NCBI GenBank assembly: GCA_945873855.1
Contig: CAMCEN010000001.1
Location: 62,001-126,000, forward strand
DNA length: 64,000 nt
Reading direction: 5' to 3'
Origin: an uncultured Campylobacter sp.
GTDB taxonomy: Bacteria > Campylobacterota > Campylobacteria > Campylobacterales > Campylobacteraceae
Positions within the stretch are counted from its first letter, which is position 1, and every line of letters starts with the position of its first letter. Below are positions 1,554 through 40,280 of this stretch, piece by piece. The notes below the pieces were generated by a model, which was not told the origin of the DNA, did not search any database, and worked only from the letters and a program-made list of their open reading frames with translations. The translations under genes and the position numbers were made by a program.

Positions 1554-2285
1554 TTAGATCAATTCTATAATCTTATCGCTATATCTACTTTTATAATAAT
1601 AAATTTTAGCTAATTTATCTTTTAAAAATGATTTTAGTTGTTCTGCTATGCTATATATAATACTTTTCCCGGTATTTGTTTCTAATGTTTTATTTTTGTA
1701 AAATCCTCTTCCTATAACAACTCTTTTTATTATTATAGGTATTTTTCTGTATTTTTTATCATCAACAATTATTCTATATTCATTCTCATATTCCCAAATT
1801 TTGTGTTTATACATTAAAATTCTATTTATATCATTGCTATTACGCCTATGTATATCTAAGAATTTAAAACCATCTATATATTTAACATCATCTATAAAAT
1901 ATTCTGCTTCTGGGATTTTGTTTGTATCAAGCTCAAAATCAATTCTTACACCATAATGATTATTTGCATAATGAGCCCACATTAAATGCTCTTTAATACG
2001 GTCTTCATTACAGTTTTCATTGTAGCACTTACTTACAGAACAAATGTATTTTTTCGTTTTTTTACTGTATATAATTCCTAATTTTTCTTTATTTGATTTA
2101 TTGTATAAATTTATACTATCATCGACTCCAAACGCACAATCTAAAATATCATTAAATTTATAAAACTCAGCAGCATATAAAACTTCTTTTTCTAAAATTT
2201 CTTTAATACGCTTAGAATTTTTGCCATTAAAATTTACTTCATTTTTATTTGCATACAAATCAAATCCACGAAATTTACAAAACAT
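1554..2285 (-). CDS. DUF2971 family protein, third gene of the darTG island
   Basis: A 243-residue protein of the DUF2971 type, function not established. Visible family-like blocks are FYKFNDILDCAF (residues about 42-53), the strong block MWAHYANNHYGVRIDF (about 102-117), and KHKIWEYENEYRII near residue 160. ATG at 2285 follows AAAGG. It lies 24 bp downstream of the DarT repeat remnant on the same strand and is as AT-rich as darT and darG, so it is probably cotranscribed and acquired with them. The C-terminus is Lys/Tyr/Ile-rich. I infer an accessory role in the toxin-antitoxin or defence cassette; nothing in the sequence fixes its activity. Confidence 0.7.
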   Translation of the reverse strand: MFCKFRGFDLYANKNEVNFNGKNSKRIKEILEKEVLYAAEFYKFNDILDCAFGVDDSINLYNKSNKEKLGIIYSKKTKKYICSVSKCYNENCNEDRIKEHLMWAHYANNHYGVRIDFELDTNKIPEAEYFIDDVKYIDGFKFLDIHRRNSNDINRILMYKHKIWEYENEYRIIVDDKKYRKIPIIIKRVVIGRGFYKNKTLETNTGKSIIYSIAEQLKSFLKDKLAKIYYYKSRYSDKIIELI

Positions 2286-2309: not shown

Positions 2310-2495
2310 TTAAAATACAATATTGTATGTTGCTATAAAAGCTCTGTTTTTTTGTTCTTGTGTAAAATTTGGTATATTTTTCTCATCTATACCACATTCG
2401 TAAAACATACTTGCTGTATTTGTGCTATCATCAATGTCCCAAGAATTTAATGGTTGATTAAAATTTTCACAGTCCGAAAACATATAGTTCGACAT
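2310..2495 (-). pseudogene. out-of-frame tail of the DarT-BspA repeat domain
   Basis: This frame continues the repeat domain of the upstream darT gene: it carries NYMFSDCENFNQPLNSWD and then a non-repetitive end (STNTASMFYECGIDEKNIPNFTQ...) that looks like the natural C-terminal cap. It is out of frame because the repeat unit at the junction is 58 bp rather than 75 bp, a 17-bp loss. Restoring the 17 bp would fuse it to darT, giving a protein of about 479 residues. It may be a stable truncation, a reversible slippage variant, or a sequencing error. An ATG exists at 2495 but it lies inside the repeat unit and has no convincing ribosome site. Confidence 0.75.
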
Positions 2496-2855
2496 TCCAA
2501 GAATTTAGTGGTTGATTAAAATTTTTACAACCCAAAAACATATAGCCCATATTGGTTACATTACTGACATTCCAAGAATTTAGTGGTTGATTAAAATTTT
2601 CACAACCCGAAAACATATGCTCCATATTAGTCACATTACTGACATTCCAATAATTTAATGGTTGATTAAAATTTGTACAGACCCAAAACATTTCACTCAT
2701 ATACACTACATTACTAACATTCCAAGAATTTAATGGTTGATTAAAATTTTCACAATTACCAAACATACAATACATATTTGTTACATTACTGACATTCCAA
2801 GAATTTAGTGGTTGATTAAAATTTTCACAACCCCAAAACATACAGCTCATATCGG
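2467..2855 (-). repeat. 75-bp coding tandem repeats of the BspA domain
   Basis: Near-identical 75-bp units, each encoding one 25-residue BspA/DUF285 repeat. On the plus strand the landmark GGTTGATTAAAATTTT recurs at 75-bp steps (for example 2510 and 2585), except between 2452 and 2510 where the step is 58 bp. Such arrays can gain and lose units by recombination or slippage; here one event is out of frame. Confidence 0.85.
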
Positions 2856-3732
2856 TTACATTACTGACATCCCAAAACTCTATACCATCAAAATTTTCTC
2901 TTTCATTTATTATAACTTCACCATTTTCATAACCTTTAAAAAATAAGTAACTCATATCAGTAATGGCACTGGTATCAATATCACCTAAATAAATATCTTC
3001 ATTATCTACAAGTGCTAGCAACTCTTCGTTTGTCTGTGGATGATATTTAAACTCTCTTTTTTGATTTGCTGTAGTATCGCTAGAATCATTAAAAAACAAA
3101 CTAGAATTCCAGCTTATATTTATAGAATTGTTTAGAAGTTTAGCTACTTTTTCGCATACGCTAGGATTTTGGCACACTATACCAGCTATCATAGCGCTTG
3201 GCACCATATCTGGCACCAAAACTTCTGCCATCATCTTAAATTTCTTTTCATTTTTTACATTTTCGTTAGTATCATTCCAAGAAGTAGCAAACACTTCATC
3301 CCAGTTAATAAAACTAGGATTTAGTAAATCATCTATATCATCGGCAAAGCCGAGCGACTGTGCAGCAGCGTTACCATTTGTAAAAATAACGCCATTTAAA
3401 AGTAAAATTTCTTTTTTGATTTCTAAAAGCACAATATTATCGCCCTGCTCTTTTTGAACTACATAAAGCATAGCATTTCGTGGATTGAAATAAAATGGCA
3501 CATATTCATGGACTGAGCGGTTATGGATAGGTTCTATTCTTTCACGCTTATCATTTGCGCTTTTATTGCTTATATCGTGCTTTTTATAAGGATTGTTATG
3601 TGGTAGTAAGCCATGAGCTAAAATGCTAGGCAAATGCTCAATGTGTGTCATATGATAAATATATCCATTTTTAAGTGGAATTTTATTTAAAACACTATTA
3701 TTATTGTAGCTACTTACTTGATAAATTGCCAT
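2467..3732 (-). CDS. darT: DarT-like DNA ADP-ribosyltransferase fused to BspA-type (DUF285) repeats
   Basis: Residues about 20-200 match DarT (DUF4433), toxins that ADP-ribosylate single-stranded DNA: GYIYHMTHIEHLPSILAHGL, then HNRSVHEYVPFYFNPRNAML with the NAD-site arginine region, and KFKMMAEVLVPDMVP with the catalytic glutamate (near residue 169). All key blocks are intact. After a linker (SWNSSL) comes a DUF285 start (PQTNEELLALV, ITDMSYLF) and about six 25-residue units of the form NVSNVTNMxxMFxxCENFNQPLNSW. The frame ends early, at VELYVFGL, because of a 17-bp loss in the last unit. ATG follows a strong AAAGGAG. darG ends 11 bp upstream, so antitoxin and toxin form one operon. The BspA repeats are normally known from surface and host-interaction proteins, so the fusion is unusual. 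Confidence 0.85.
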   Translation of the reverse strand: MAIYQVSSYNNNSVLNKIPLKNGYIYHMTHIEHLPSILAHGLLPHNNPYKKHDISNKSANDKRERIEPIHNRSVHEYVPFYFNPRNAMLYVVQKEQGDNIVLLEIKKEILLLNGVIFTNGNAAAQSLGFADDIDDLLNPSFINWDEVFATSWNDTNENVKNEKKFKMMAEVLVPDMVPSAMIAGIVCQNPSVCEKVAKLLNNSINISWNSSLFFNDSSDTTANQKREFKYHPQTNEELLALVDNEDIYLGDIDTSAITDMSYLFFKGYENGEVIINERENFDGIEFWDVSNVTDMSCMFWGCENFNQPLNSWNVSNVTNMYCMFGNCENFNQPLNSWNVSNVVYMSEMFWVCTNFNQPLNYWNVSNVTNMEHMFSGCENFNQPLNSWNVSNVTNMGYMFLGCKNFNQPLNSWNVELYVFGL

Positions 3733-3743
3733 TATAAACTCCT

Positions 3744-4451
3744 TTAAAATAAACGATCATAGCTTATATTGCCACGCTCGTGTTTTTGTATAAAATCAAA
3801 TGCTCTTTGAATAGTCAAATCTCCAACACCTTTTACGCTTAGCATTCCATTCATGCTACGAATATTTTTATTTTGTAAAGCTGATAGCAAAGCATTTATT
3901 TGAGTAGTTTTTAGCTCTGTGTGTTCTCTAATATAGTTTATATCACAAGATAAAAATTTTTCTTTAAATTTATCATACAAATCATCACTAGCACTAGGGT
4001 CAAAATGCCAAATTTCAACTGGAATTTCTACGCCAGATAAATACTCTTTCATTATTTTTAGCGAAACATTTTCATCTATTCCACCACGACTTGCGCCAAG
4101 CAATGGAAAGGCAATAGATTCTATACCCTTTTCTTTGTAAGTTTTAATGAATTTTTCAAGTCCAGCGTGCAAATATTCTTCTTTGCTAGGTAGTTTCCAA
4201 GAAGTTTTTGTAGGAAATGCTAAAATCTTAGCATAATTTGCGTTTTCATCTTTACTTAGATTATAAATCCATAAAGTGCCTATTTTTATAGCATTTTGCT
4301 TACAAAATTCTTTGTATTTTTCAAACATTTTTGGATGCCTAAGCCTAAGTTCAAAAGCAATACCAGCACCCATTACACCTTCACAATTAACCGTATTTGC
4401 AATAGTTTGAGCCTTACTAGTAAAAATATTGCCTTTTTTGATTTCAAGCAT
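3744..4451 (-). CDS. darG: DarG-like macrodomain antitoxin (ADP-ribosylglycohydrolase)
   Basis: A 235-residue protein with an N-terminal macrodomain (residues about 1-155). GNIFTSKAQTIANTVNCEGV and MGAGIAFELRLRHP form the ADP-ribose pocket, ILAFPTKTSWKLPS carries the lysine used by DarG enzymes, and FPLLGASRGGID is the second loop. DarG removes ADP-ribose from DNA and neutralises DarT. The C-terminal part (from about residue 165) is only about 70 residues, shorter than the DarT-binding domain of characterised DarG proteins, and includes SVKGVGDLTIQRAFDFI. Start ATG follows AAGG. It is the first gene of the operon darG-darT-DUF2971. A 13-bp inverted repeat sits just upstream. Confidence 0.88.
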   Translation of the reverse strand: MLEIKKGNIFTSKAQTIANTVNCEGVMGAGIAFELRLRHPKMFEKYKEFCKQNAIKIGTLWIYNLSKDENANYAKILAFPTKTSWKLPSKEEYLHAGLEKFIKTYKEKGIESIAFPLLGASRGGIDENVSLKIMKEYLSGVEIPVEIWHFDPSASDDLYDKFKEKFLSCDINYIREHTELKTTQINALLSALQNKNIRSMNGMLSVKGVGDLTIQRAFDFIQKHERGNISYDRLF

Positions 4452-4475
4452 AAAAAAACCTTAATATAAAATTTT

Positions 4476-4513
4476 TTATTTTATCAAAATTTAAATATTA
4501 TTTGATAAAATAA
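4476..4513 (-). promoter_or_regulatory. 13-bp inverted repeat over the darG promoter (candidate operator)
   Basis: TTATTTTATCAAA and TTTGATAAAATAA are perfect inverted repeats separated by 12 AT-only bases. On the minus strand the half nearer darG contains a GATAAAAT -10-like box about 30 bp from the darG start. Position and symmetry suggest an operator, perhaps for autoregulation. A hairpin acting as terminator for transcripts from the gpsA side is the alternative. Confidence 0.5.
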
Positions 4514-4735
4514 CAGCTCGTAGTAGTCTCAGAAGAAGGGTTGCCCTGCTGTGAGGCTTTAAATCTAGGAACAGAGGATAAGGTCTTCTTAGAGCTACTT
4601 TTAAATTTTAAAAAACTACACCACTTCGCAACCAAAATAAATCTCATCAGCACTGATATCAAGGCTAGAATTCCAGCTTAAAGCATAAACCTTTTGGCTC
4701 TATTTTACTTGTTCAAAGCCCTTTATATGAAACAT
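4498..4735 (-). other. gap between gpsA and darG: possible gene remnants
   Basis: Two overlapping minus-strand frames look like decayed coding sequence. The first begins with an ATG at 4735, one base after the gpsA stop, and reads MFHIKGFEQVK, a TAG stop (4700-4702), then a further 27 residues to a second stop at 4616. The second is a 49-codon frame (4498-4647) starting MRFILVAKWCSF and ending CYFIK. The plus strand of the same stretch also has a 55-codon frame without a start. I do not recognise any of them. The piece shares the 16-mer CTAGAATTCCAGCTTA with the darT linker. Confidence 0.3.
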
Positions 4736-8663: not shown

Positions 8664-9672
8664 TTTCTATCCTTTTTAGTATTTCATCAGCTAGGATTTG
8701 TGAGCCTATTTTGCTTATGTGAATTCCATCATCTTGGCGGATTTTAGAGCGTTTGCCATTTATGTTTAAGTAAGTAAGAAAATTATCATTTTGGCAAAGA
8801 TACTCGCTAGTATTTATGAAAAACTGCCCATTTTGCTCGCTTACACTTTTGTAAATTTCATTTAAAAGCTCTATTTTTTTCGCATAGTCAGTTTTTTGCA
8901 TACAAGGCAGGCTTAGCCACAGCACCTTTACATTACTAGCTTTGGCGATTTTATAGATTTCATCCACACGCCTAGCATAAAACTCCCTCCATTCACTCGA
9001 GTTTAGCTCATAAAACTTACCATTTATACTGCGTCCCCACGGATCATTTGCGCCTATTAGCATCACAAGTAGCCTTATGTCTTGATTTTGAGCCAAAGCC
9101 TCTTTTATAACCTGCGCCCAGTTATGAGATTTTTTATATAGTAACCCTGTGCTTTGCTTGCTTAGATCAAGCACTTTTAGCCCTAGTTTTGGATAGTTTT
9201 GACTAGCTATCATGCCGATGTATTGCATCATGCTATCGCCTGTGATTAGCACGCTATCACCTTGTTTTAGCACTATTTTATCATCTGAGCTTTGCTCTAT
9301 AGTAGCAGTATCTGCGCTAGCATTTTCATCACTTATTTGGGCGCTAGCTCTTATATTTATTGTTATATTATCATCAAAAGGTATTATATCGTTAGTGATA
9401 TTTGCTTCGCTATCATTTTGTTTATTTGTCTCAAAGACAGCAGCATCAGCGCTTTGGGTATTATTTTCAAAAATAACATTTGCGCTAGTATCAACAAACA
9501 CGCCAAAAGCCCTAAAAATCTCTGCTCCCTTGCTAAATTCTGTGCCCTTTAAAAGCTCATCAAGCCCAAAAGAGCTATGAAATCTTTGTTCTATATAAAA
9601 AATCAGCGAGTTTTGTGTGAAAAAAACCAGCACCACAAGCATTAAAACATTTACTAAAACAAACTTAAACAT
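8656..9672 (-). CDS. patB: PatB-like SGNH peptidoglycan O-acetyltransferase
   Basis: A 338-residue membrane-anchored SGNH protein. The first 25 residues form a signal anchor (FVLVNVLMLVVLVFF). A variable Asn/Asp/Ala-rich linker (about 75-130) precedes the SGNH domain: SVLITGDSMMQYIG, VMLIGANDPWG, and DDGIHISKIGSQIL. PatB transfers acetyl groups delivered by PatA to peptidoglycan in the periplasm. It sits 3 bp after patA and overlaps ape1 by 8 bp, so the three genes are translated from one transcript. Confidence 0.8.
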   Translation of the reverse strand: MFKFVLVNVLMLVVLVFFTQNSLIFYIEQRFHSSFGLDELLKGTEFSKGAEIFRAFGVFVDTSANVIFENNTQSADAAVFETNKQNDSEANITNDIIPFDDNITINIRASAQISDENASADTATIEQSSDDKIVLKQGDSVLITGDSMMQYIGMIASQNYPKLGLKVLDLSKQSTGLLYKKSHNWAQVIKEALAQNQDIRLLVMLIGANDPWGRSINGKFYELNSSEWREFYARRVDEIYKIAKASNVKVLWLSLPCMQKTDYAKKIELLNEIYKSVSEQNGQFFINTSEYLCQNDNFLTYLNINGKRSKIRQDDGIHISKIGSQILADEILKRIEIE

Positions 9673-9675
9673 GAC

Positions 9676-11211
9676 TTAAAAACTCGCATAAATAAAACTT
9701 GGAATTCCACTAGGCATAATAGCAATTATCATGCTAAAAACAAGCCCTAGCACAAGAGCTTTTAGCGGGACTGGCATGCATGAGAGCATATGAACACAAA
9801 AGCCAAAAAATCCAGCGCATTTGTGATATAGCCCCACGCCCACAAGCAGCAAAATCACTAATGCTGTCTGCGAGCCAAAATTCCCAGCTGCTAGCGCTGC
9901 AAAAAGCCCTTTTAGTATGACTAAGCTATTATCAAAGTCATTGGCAAAAAATATCCACGCAAAACTAACAAAAATATAGGTTAAAATCAAAGATACATAG
10001 TAGTTTAGCTGCGGCAGGGCTAAGGCTTTATAAGCGTTAAAAATCACCAGCCCCACGCCATGAAGCAGCCCCCAGATGAGAAAATTCCACTCTGCTCCAT
10101 GCCAAATTCCAGAAAGCCCAAAGGCAATAAGCACATTTATTTGCGTGCGAGTAAAGCCCCCAGCCGACCCACCAAGCGGAATATAAATATAACGCATAAT
10201 AAAAGTAGTTAGCGTGATATGCCAACGCTGCCAAAACTCTCTAATATTTCTCGCTGCATACGGCATAGCAAAGTTCTGCGCTAGCTCAAAGCCAAGGGCT
10301 AAGGCAAGTGCGCGGCTCATATCTATAAACCCGCTAAAATTCGCATATAGCACCACGCCATAAAGCAAAATCGCAAGCAGTATCTGGCTAGCCGAGCTAG
10401 ATGATGAATAAACCGAGCTAAAAACATTATTTACATAAGGGCTAAGTAGCGAGCTAATCACCAGTAGTTTCACACAAGCAAAAAGGGCAAGCGTGAAAAT
10501 CTCATCACCACAAGAAAAATTCTTTGGCTCATTAAACTGCGGCAAAAGTGCCCTAAGCCCCTTCTCATCGCTAGCACGGCTAATAGGCCCCATCACAATA
10601 CTAGGAAAAAACGCTAAAAAGCAAGCTAGAGAGATAAAATCATCACACCTCTCACACTGCCCCCTATACATAGCTACCAAGTATGTAATACTCATAAATG
10701 TATAGTATGACACGCCCAGCGGAAACGCCACACTCTCAAAAAGACTAAGCCCAAAAAACTCAAAAAATCCAGCAAATACTCCATAAAAGAAATCATAATA
10801 TTTAAAAAAGCACAAAAACAGCACACAAAAGCCAATAATCACGCCCAAAGCTAGATTTGAAGTAGGTGCAAACTTGTTTTTATATGAAATAAGCTCAGCA
10901 CTTTGCGAATTATTTTTTGTATTATTTTTTGTATTATTTTTTGTATTATTTGCTAAATCCTCGCTGAATTTTTGGCTTTGTTCTAATAAGCGCACGAGCT
11001 TGCCGTGTTCTTGCAGATACTTACCACACACAAAAACAGCGCAAGTAAAGCCAAAAAGCACCAGCGCAAAATACAAGCTATTTGCGCAAATAAAGGCATA
11101 AGAAGCAAATAAAATCAGCAATTTTTGCATGCTAACAAAGTTTTTAGCCGCCCAGTATATCACAAAAAACAGCAAAAAAAGTAGCACAAACTCAGGTGAG
11201 AAAAAAGTCAT
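9676..11211 (-). CDS. patA: MBOAT-family O-acetyltransferase (PatA-like)
   Basis: A 511-residue polytopic membrane O-acyltransferase that moves acetyl groups across the membrane for peptidoglycan O-acetylation. The MBOAT signature is clear: VSYYTFMSITYLVAMYRG, IREFWQRWHITLTTFIMRYI and, with the essential His, SGIWHGAEWNFLIWGLLHG. Residues about 93-104 are three NNTK units from a 12-bp direct repeat, in a loop where most homologues have none. First gene of patA-patB-ape1. A TAAAAT -10-like box lies about 25 bp upstream. AlgI of alginate acetylation is a relative, but no alginate genes are nearby. Confidence 0.88.
   Translation of the reverse strand: MTFFSPEFVLLFLLFFVIYWAAKNFVSMQKLLILFASYAFICANSLYFALVLFGFTCAVFVCGKYLQEHGKLVRLLEQSQKFSEDLANNTKNNTKNNTKNNSQSAELISYKNKFAPTSNLALGVIIGFCVLFLCFFKYYDFFYGVFAGFFEFFGLSLFESVAFPLGVSYYTFMSITYLVAMYRGQCERCDDFISLACFLAFFPSIVMGPISRASDEKGLRALLPQFNEPKNFSCGDEIFTLALFACVKLLVISSLLSPYVNNVFSSVYSSSSSASQILLAILLYGVVLYANFSGFIDMSRALALALGFELAQNFAMPYAARNIREFWQRWHITLTTFIMRYIYIPLGGSAGGFTRTQINVLIAFGLSGIWHGAEWNFLIWGLLHGVGLVIFNAYKALALPQLNYYVSLILTYIFVSFAWIFFANDFDNSLVILKGLFAALAAGNFGSQTALVILLLVGVGLYHKCAGFFGFCVHMLSCMPVPLKALVLGLVFSMIIAIMPSGIPSFIYASF
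10909..10958 (-). repeat. 12-bp in-frame microsatellite inside patA
   Basis: TTTTTTGTATTA on the plus strand is repeated three to four times in a row, coding (NNTK)n. Because the unit is 12 bp, changes in copy number lengthen or shorten the loop without breaking the frame. Confidence 0.8.
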
Positions 11212-11740
11212 AAACTAGCCTTGAAAAATAAAAAAGTAATTTTATCTTATTTTTTGTGAATTTTTGCAAAATTTCAGTATTTTTTAGGGGGTTAGGGGGA
11301 TATTTTTTAGCAATTCTAGAATTCCTAAACTAGAATTCATAAACTAAAATTCTAGAATTCTAAAATTCCCAATCTAAAATTCCCAATCTAAAATTCCTAA
11401 TCTAGAATTCCTAAACTAAAATTCTAGAATTCTAAAATTCCCAATCTAGAATTCCTAATCTAGAATTCCTAAAATAAATTCTAGAATTCCAGAATTCCTA
11501 AACTAGAATTCCCAAAATAAAATCTAGAATTCTAGAATTCCCAATCTAGAATTCCCAAGCCTTATGTCATCCCCCGACTTGATCGGGGGATCTCATCACA
11601 AAGAATTCTAGAATTCCTAAAAAATACCCCCTAACCCCCAACCAGCGGATGCGAAGCAAAAAAGCCTAGGAATTCTAGAATTTCATACAGACAGAGATCC
11701 CCCAGTCAAGCTGGGGGATGACAGGGAATTCTAGAATTCC
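11212..11740. repeat. gene-free repeat block (GAATTC palindrome array)
   Basis: No coding sequence seen. From about 11310 to 11560 the DNA is almost entirely full or partial GGAATTCTAGAATTCC copies separated by CCTAAACTA, CCCAATCTA and similar spacers. At 11567-11594 is the hairpin CCCCCGACTTGATCGGGGG inside GTCAT...ATCTC, and at 11694-11722 an opposite-oriented relative. A CCCCCTAACCCCC element with AACCAGCGGATGCGAAGC follows at about 11626-11665. Next to patA is a GGGGGTTAGGGGG stretch, the reverse of that element. Confidence 0.9.
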
Positions 11741-40216: not shown

Positions 40217-40280
40217 CAAAATATCCTTATTAAAATCTAGAATTCTAGCCTAAACTTGCTTAAAAAATAAAATTTTTAGC

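Follow-up and report, generated by a model that had tools for sequence, protein, structure and literature searches.

Organization of the locus

The window analyzed here, a stretch of 64,000 nucleotides from an uncultured Campylobacter sp. (GenBank assembly GCA_945873855.1), carries on its minus strand a darG antitoxin gene and a darT toxin gene that continues into an array of PARCEL (DUF285/BspA) repeats. According to ORF and Pfam analysis, the darT-PARCEL fusion (2467..3732, minus strand) is a single frame running from 3732 to 2467 and encoding 421 residues plus a stop codon. It is directly preceded by darG (3744..4451, minus strand; 235 residues), which ends at 3744, with darT starting at 3732, an operon-like arrangement. 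Pfam, PADLOC and alignment assign to DarG a macro domain, with a GVMGAGIA motif and an FPTK lysine that we take to be K80 of the literature, followed by a short C-terminal part. Adjoining darT-PARCEL, a gene at 1554-2285 (minus strand) encodes a DUF2971 protein that matches the PADLOC candidate PDC-S31 (E = 5e-30); it is mostly deleted in G007, a genome of the same species.

Both domains of the fusion are matched within one chain. The Pfam DarT family (PF14487) covers residues 26-203 (E = 6.3e-44; 150.5 bits against a cut-off of 22.5), and the PADLOC DarT model agrees (E = 2.5e-44). DUF285 (PF03382) is found in three stretches of the same chain (E = 3.2e-80; 266.1 bits, cut-off 25), and the PARCEL repeat model TIGR02167 of NCBIfam scores 91.2 bits (cut-off 30). 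For DarG, the macro domain reaches 56.7 bits in Pfam (cut-off 22) and the PADLOC DarG model is matched with an E-value of 2.7e-45. Both proteins miss the curated NCBIfam cut-offs (130.3 versus 150 bits for DarT; 146 versus 250 bits for DarG); these equivalog cut-offs are a naming threshold and define no biological property. No signal peptide was recognizable by eye on the fusion protein.

The first-pass annotation of this DNA had proposed a DarT toxin fused to BspA/DUF285 repeats, and the Pfam, PADLOC and Foldseek matches confirm that the two domains share one chain. That annotation had also named two ways in which the fusion could be illusory, namely repeats forming a separate gene with its own start and terminator, or a local assembly join. 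Both were rejected: the single frame has no internal stop, the domain-joining region contains neither a stop codon nor a terminator-like site and is not enriched in promoter-like sites (24 observed, 21.8 expected in shuffles), and the same fusion is present in four other genomes from the Campylobacter clade to which the window belongs. The extent of the gene had to be revised, however, as 2310-3732 had been read as one ORF; the frame ends at 2467 with the remainder in another frame, and the window sequence contains no "intact 479-residue form". A search of the literature found no paper describing a DarT with BspA or DUF285, and, as far as the literature searched shows, a DarT-PARCEL fusion in a DarTG2-type module is previously unreported.

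Fold and active site of the DarT domain

The DarT ADP-ribosyltransferase domain (residues 1-215; 3088..3732, minus strand), which includes the last strand SWNSSLFF, was delimited by Pfam, PADLOC, alignment with Thermus DarT 7omv, an AlphaFold model and Foldseek. The model of the 421-residue protein (mean pLDDT 83.2, pTM 0.62) consists of a confident DarT domain and a confident repeat domain, with a low-confidence coil between them (pLDDT <50 at residues 217-227). When it was compared with the PDB by Foldseek, all matches at E ≤ 0.001 were DarT structures; the top match was Thermus DarT 7omy (E = 3.5e-13; TM 0.79 by target), and the DarT1 structure 8baq was a weaker fold match. The repeat part yielded no confident Foldseek target in the PDB and no sequence match to solved chains at E ≤ 0.1.

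The NAD-binding and catalytic residues look intact, as had been claimed earlier. Thermus H13, T15, R51, Y71, M78 and E160 correspond in the 7omv alignment to H27, T29, R63, Y81, M88 and E170 of the window protein, all of which are kept; E160 is presumably the counterpart of E170, as read from this alignment and from knowledge of the family. The NAD contact N19 of Thermus DarT is H33 here, and the base-contacting H119 is replaced by N121, within a GNAA motif that is also seen in the macro-associated DarTs of Thermosipho (7omu) and M. tuberculosis (7yk3). This mapping combined a HMMER alignment to 7omv with residue roles taken from the literature (PMC9967889).

Junction and repeat array

The junction had been placed at SWNSSL, a half copy of a genome palindrome, with recombination at the palindrome suggested as the origin of the fusion. 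The palindrome itself is real: the 12-bp sequence CTRGAATTCYAG occurs at 8 sites in the window (0.02 expected), and it is abundant and species-specific, with 80 sites in the window genome, 94 in a conspecific genome and 0-5 in 14 congeners. A motif search located one site inside darT (3101..3112) and another between gpsA and darG (4665..4676); further sites lie, for example, at 11481-11492 and 40237-40248. SWNSSL (residues 207-212) is nevertheless not the junction, because it aligns with the final beta strand of ordinary DarTs (NIISKPDMFF, WKIAIEPDLFF) and sits inside the modeled DarT fold. Other DarTs terminate at LFF/LYF or at most about 13 residues beyond, and these ends, together with the low pLDDT, put the real junction in the linker, a low-confidence coil at residues ~216-229 (3046..3087, minus strand). 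At the strand that bears the palindrome in the window, the fused DarTs of the congeners G005, G010 and G011 read VADMEYFF. Since congeners without the palindrome at this site also have the fusion, and since the motif lies within a DarT strand and is abundant in one species only, the palindrome was rejected as the cause of the fusion.

Behind the linker lies a PARCEL N-cap (YHPQTNEELLALVDNEDIYLGDIDTSAITDMS...; 2896..3045, minus strand), which sequence comparison showed to be common to stand-alone PARCEL proteins of the genus. It is followed by five complete PARCEL/DUF285 units (2524..2895, minus strand; Pfam, NCBIfam and unit-length analysis) of 72, 75, 75, 75 and 75 nt; beyond the 72-nt first unit, the repeat is thus exactly 75 nt long. 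Unit-length analysis further revealed a shortened penultimate unit of 58 nt (2466..2523, minus strand), in which a 17-nt deletion shifts the frame; the ORF therefore closes at 2467, before the last repeat and C-cap, which fall into another frame. This last part (2310..2465, minus strand), within an ORF at 2310-2495, is still matched by DUF285 in Pfam (E = 1.8e-8). The run of 25-residue BspA units in the C-terminal half described by the first reading is therefore upheld by DUF285, TIGR02167 and the 75-nt units as far as the frameshift; the last repeat and C-cap do not belong to it. Having lost these by frameshift, the tail of the window copy may already be decaying. Dyad symmetry of the coding repeat has been reported for PARCEL (Roske et al. 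2010, PMC2996958).

Distribution and origin of the fusion

DarT and DUF285 occur in one ORF in 5 of 16 Campylobacter genomes: the window genome, G007, G005, G010 and G011. The fusion of G007 occupies the same gpsA-side locus; that of G005 is found downstream from an msrAB-like gene and those of G010 and G011 downstream from a thioesterase-like gene (gene names assigned by eye), which makes three chromosomal sites in all. The four relatives share with the window copy the architecture and an N-terminal MAI(Y/F)QV..LPLKNGY; those whose end is known also have a related C-cap. The five fused DarT domains form one clade (95/97), with about 45% identity between the two groups of fusions, and none of the five lineages has lost the PARCEL array (1 to 16 units by pattern, the lowest count being at a contig end). 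A survey of 397 Campylobacterota genomes detected DarT in 33 and DUF285 in 106; in the 28 DarT-bearing genomes outside the genus, no fusion was found, and DUF285 was present in just two, away from DarT. The DarTs found in other phyla (L054, L059-L062 and L056, a Gracilibacteria-labeled contig) likewise carry no PARCELs. From these sequence relationships, the fusion appears to have arisen once, in this Campylobacter clade.

A phage origin was considered and rejected, as the listed phage matches and all four IMG/VR matches are limited to the PARCEL part. DarT homologs, counted for DarT alone, are present at <60% identity in 21 plasmid records.

Copies without an antitoxin

Besides the window gene, a search of the genus for DarG recovered only one, a different type in G009 (34% identity), leaving four fusions (G005, G007, G010 and G011) as orphans, although G010 and G011 are drafts (83% and 99% complete), so that a DarG could have been missed there. 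In all four, YCISS or YYIAN replaces YHMTH, with loss of the NAD-anchoring H27; the NAD loop (residues ~43-62) is largely missing, as is the GNAA Asn, and the position of M88 is occupied by L, T or A. R63 persists in three orphans but not in G007; all four retain Y81 and E170. DarG and intact motifs therefore co-occur across the five fusion genomes: one has both and four have neither. The four orphan DarTs are accordingly predicted, from their residues, to be NAD-dead, and their loss of H27, the NAD loop, M88 and the GNAA Asn is as expected if DarT activity is not tolerated without an antitoxin. A dN/dS of about 0.33, based on few changes, suggests that the DarT domains of G005, G010 and G011 are nonetheless maintained. 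Constraint is also seen over the repeats, with dN/dS values of 0.26 between the window and G007 over linker, cap and two units, and of 0.4-0.57 among orphan copies over cap and units.

Alignment of the window with G007 exposed a mosaic block (3290..4600, minus strand) comprising darG and darT codons 1 to ~147: G007 lacks darG and diverges in these darT codons, whereas its flanks match those of the window at 94-98% identity. Below about 3290, identity is again 85-98% per 100 columns over the last part of DarT and the repeat cap. The mosaic implies two alleles at one site, recombined inside darT. Over residues 23-60, the window copy resembles L054 (64%) more than it does the orphans (about 40%). 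Recombination of the active site from a canonical DarT is disfavored, however, as in a tree of residues 1-146 the window copy stays within the fusion clade (98/99), sister to the four grouped orphans (96/92). Joint loss of residues may draw the orphans together in this tree, which is also limited by long branches; its placement of the window copy makes retained ancestry the simpler explanation.

Other repeat and DarT fusions

PARCEL arrays also occur at the C-terminus of bpMoxR AAA ATPases (PF20030) in two Campylobacterota genera (L046:5449-7488 and 9093-11246; L113:1069-3234), and the L046 genes adjoin a VWA gene. Near PARCEL genes of G000 (contig 2), G005 and G010 lies a PDDEXK_4-type nuclease-like gene (L039:8210-9520, L042:10567-11865 and L051:1081-2325), assigned by Pfam for L039 and L042 and by sequence likeness for L051. 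A different repeat-DarT fusion is the 1543-residue protein at L124:1648-6279, which has many W-D-W-type repeats and a DarT domain at its end; it adjoins a 450-residue protein ending in a macro domain (L124:291-1643). In a 522-residue protein at L054:287-1855, the DarT domain is C-terminal and the N-terminal half has no assigned domain.

Possible roles of the repeat domain

We regard it as moderately probable that the locus is a chromosomal DarTG2-type module whose toxin bears a C-terminal, likely protein-binding, PARCEL solenoid, with the fusion having arisen once and the DarG-free copies having lost NAD-binding residues; the module is a candidate anti-phage toxin-antitoxin system. Judging from homology, DarT would transfer ADP-ribose from NAD+ to thymidines in ssDNA, and the DarG macro domain would strip it off and restrain the toxin. 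The PARCEL array, held on a flexible linker behind the DarT fold, could bind a protein partner and so place DarT or couple it to a trigger. Indirect support for partner binding comes from the retention of the array in five lineages, the constraint on cap and units, and the separate bpMoxR-PARCEL fusions. We know of no ligand for any PARCEL solenoid. For the family, the ADP-ribosylation of thymidines in ssDNA and the removal of this mark by DarG are described in PMC11543638, and the release of DarTG by phage infection has been described as elusive (PMC9967889).

Alternatively, the repeats might be a passive passenger, a recombinogenic PARCEL cassette added to the 3' end of darT and tolerated there, with ordinary DarTG2 function. 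PARCEL ORFs are repeat-rich and frequent among Campylobacterota genomes (106 of 397), they are thought to spread via horizontal gene transfer and shuffling (PMC2996958), and the window array is frameshifted; yet a mere passenger would hardly be kept in all five lineages, whose DarT domains are about 45% identical between groups, or show a dN/dS of 0.26-0.57 over cap and units, and we consider this explanation rather unlikely. Less likely still is a locus in decay, in which the fused toxins gradually lose function and the window copy is simply the allele that has degraded least. The frameshift, the loss of active-site residues and DarG from four of five copies, and the inactive-looking allele at the same site in G007 would fit such decay, but the degenerate DarT domains are still open frames with a dN/dS of about 0.33 in G005, G010 and G011 (few changes), and the window DarT and DarG retain all catalytic motifs. 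That the repeats keep DarT inactive or contribute to the DarG-binding surface, as autoinhibition rather than targeting, is highly improbable: the fusion point is at the end of the DarT fold, and the short DarG (225-241 residues in aligned relatives of the window group versus 331-356 in two longer types) would leave room for a second inhibitor, but short DarGs also partner repeat-free DarTs (L054, L056-L060), and the linker is modeled at low confidence, like a flexible coil.

A more speculative and rather unlikely reading is that PARCEL solenoids are exchangeable recognition modules of Campylobacterota intracellular conflict systems, and that antitoxin-free DarT-PARCELs are pseudo-toxins maintained for a separate function, such as that of decoys binding ssDNA or a partner. 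A DarT with a built-in interaction module, together with natural relatives that share this module but whose enzyme is apparently dead, provides a direct way into the question of what the toxin is tethered to. A role inside the cell is also suggested for PARCEL repeats, which have hitherto been studied mainly as surface proteins.

Comparison with known systems

With DarTG1 (DarT-NADAR), the window module shares the DarT fold; its antitoxin is a macro domain rather than NADAR. The bpMoxR-vWA ternary conflict systems (PF20030) resemble it in that the bpMoxR ATPase of G001 and G293 has a C-terminal PARCEL array, as the window DarT does, but their core enzyme differs. Kaur et al. (2020, PMC7159879) placed the bpMoxR family in conflict systems; neither DUF285 nor BspA turned up when the text of their paper was searched. 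PARCEL/DUF285/TIGR02167 proteins have in common with the window array the 25-residue repeat, the 75-nt units and the stand-alone-type N-cap, whereas here the array sits on an enzyme without a signal peptide recognizable by eye. Roske et al. (2010, PMC2996958) described many PARCEL ORFs as targeted to the membrane and left the role of the untargeted ones open. With the DarTG2 systems of Thermus, Thermosipho, EPEC and M. tuberculosis, the window module shares the ART fold, the active-site residues and an adjoining macro-domain DarG with GVMGAGIA and FPTK. It differs from them in its short DarG, in its gene order, with darG before darT where the nearest relatives (L054, L056-L058) have darT first, and in the PARCEL solenoid at the C-terminus of its toxin.
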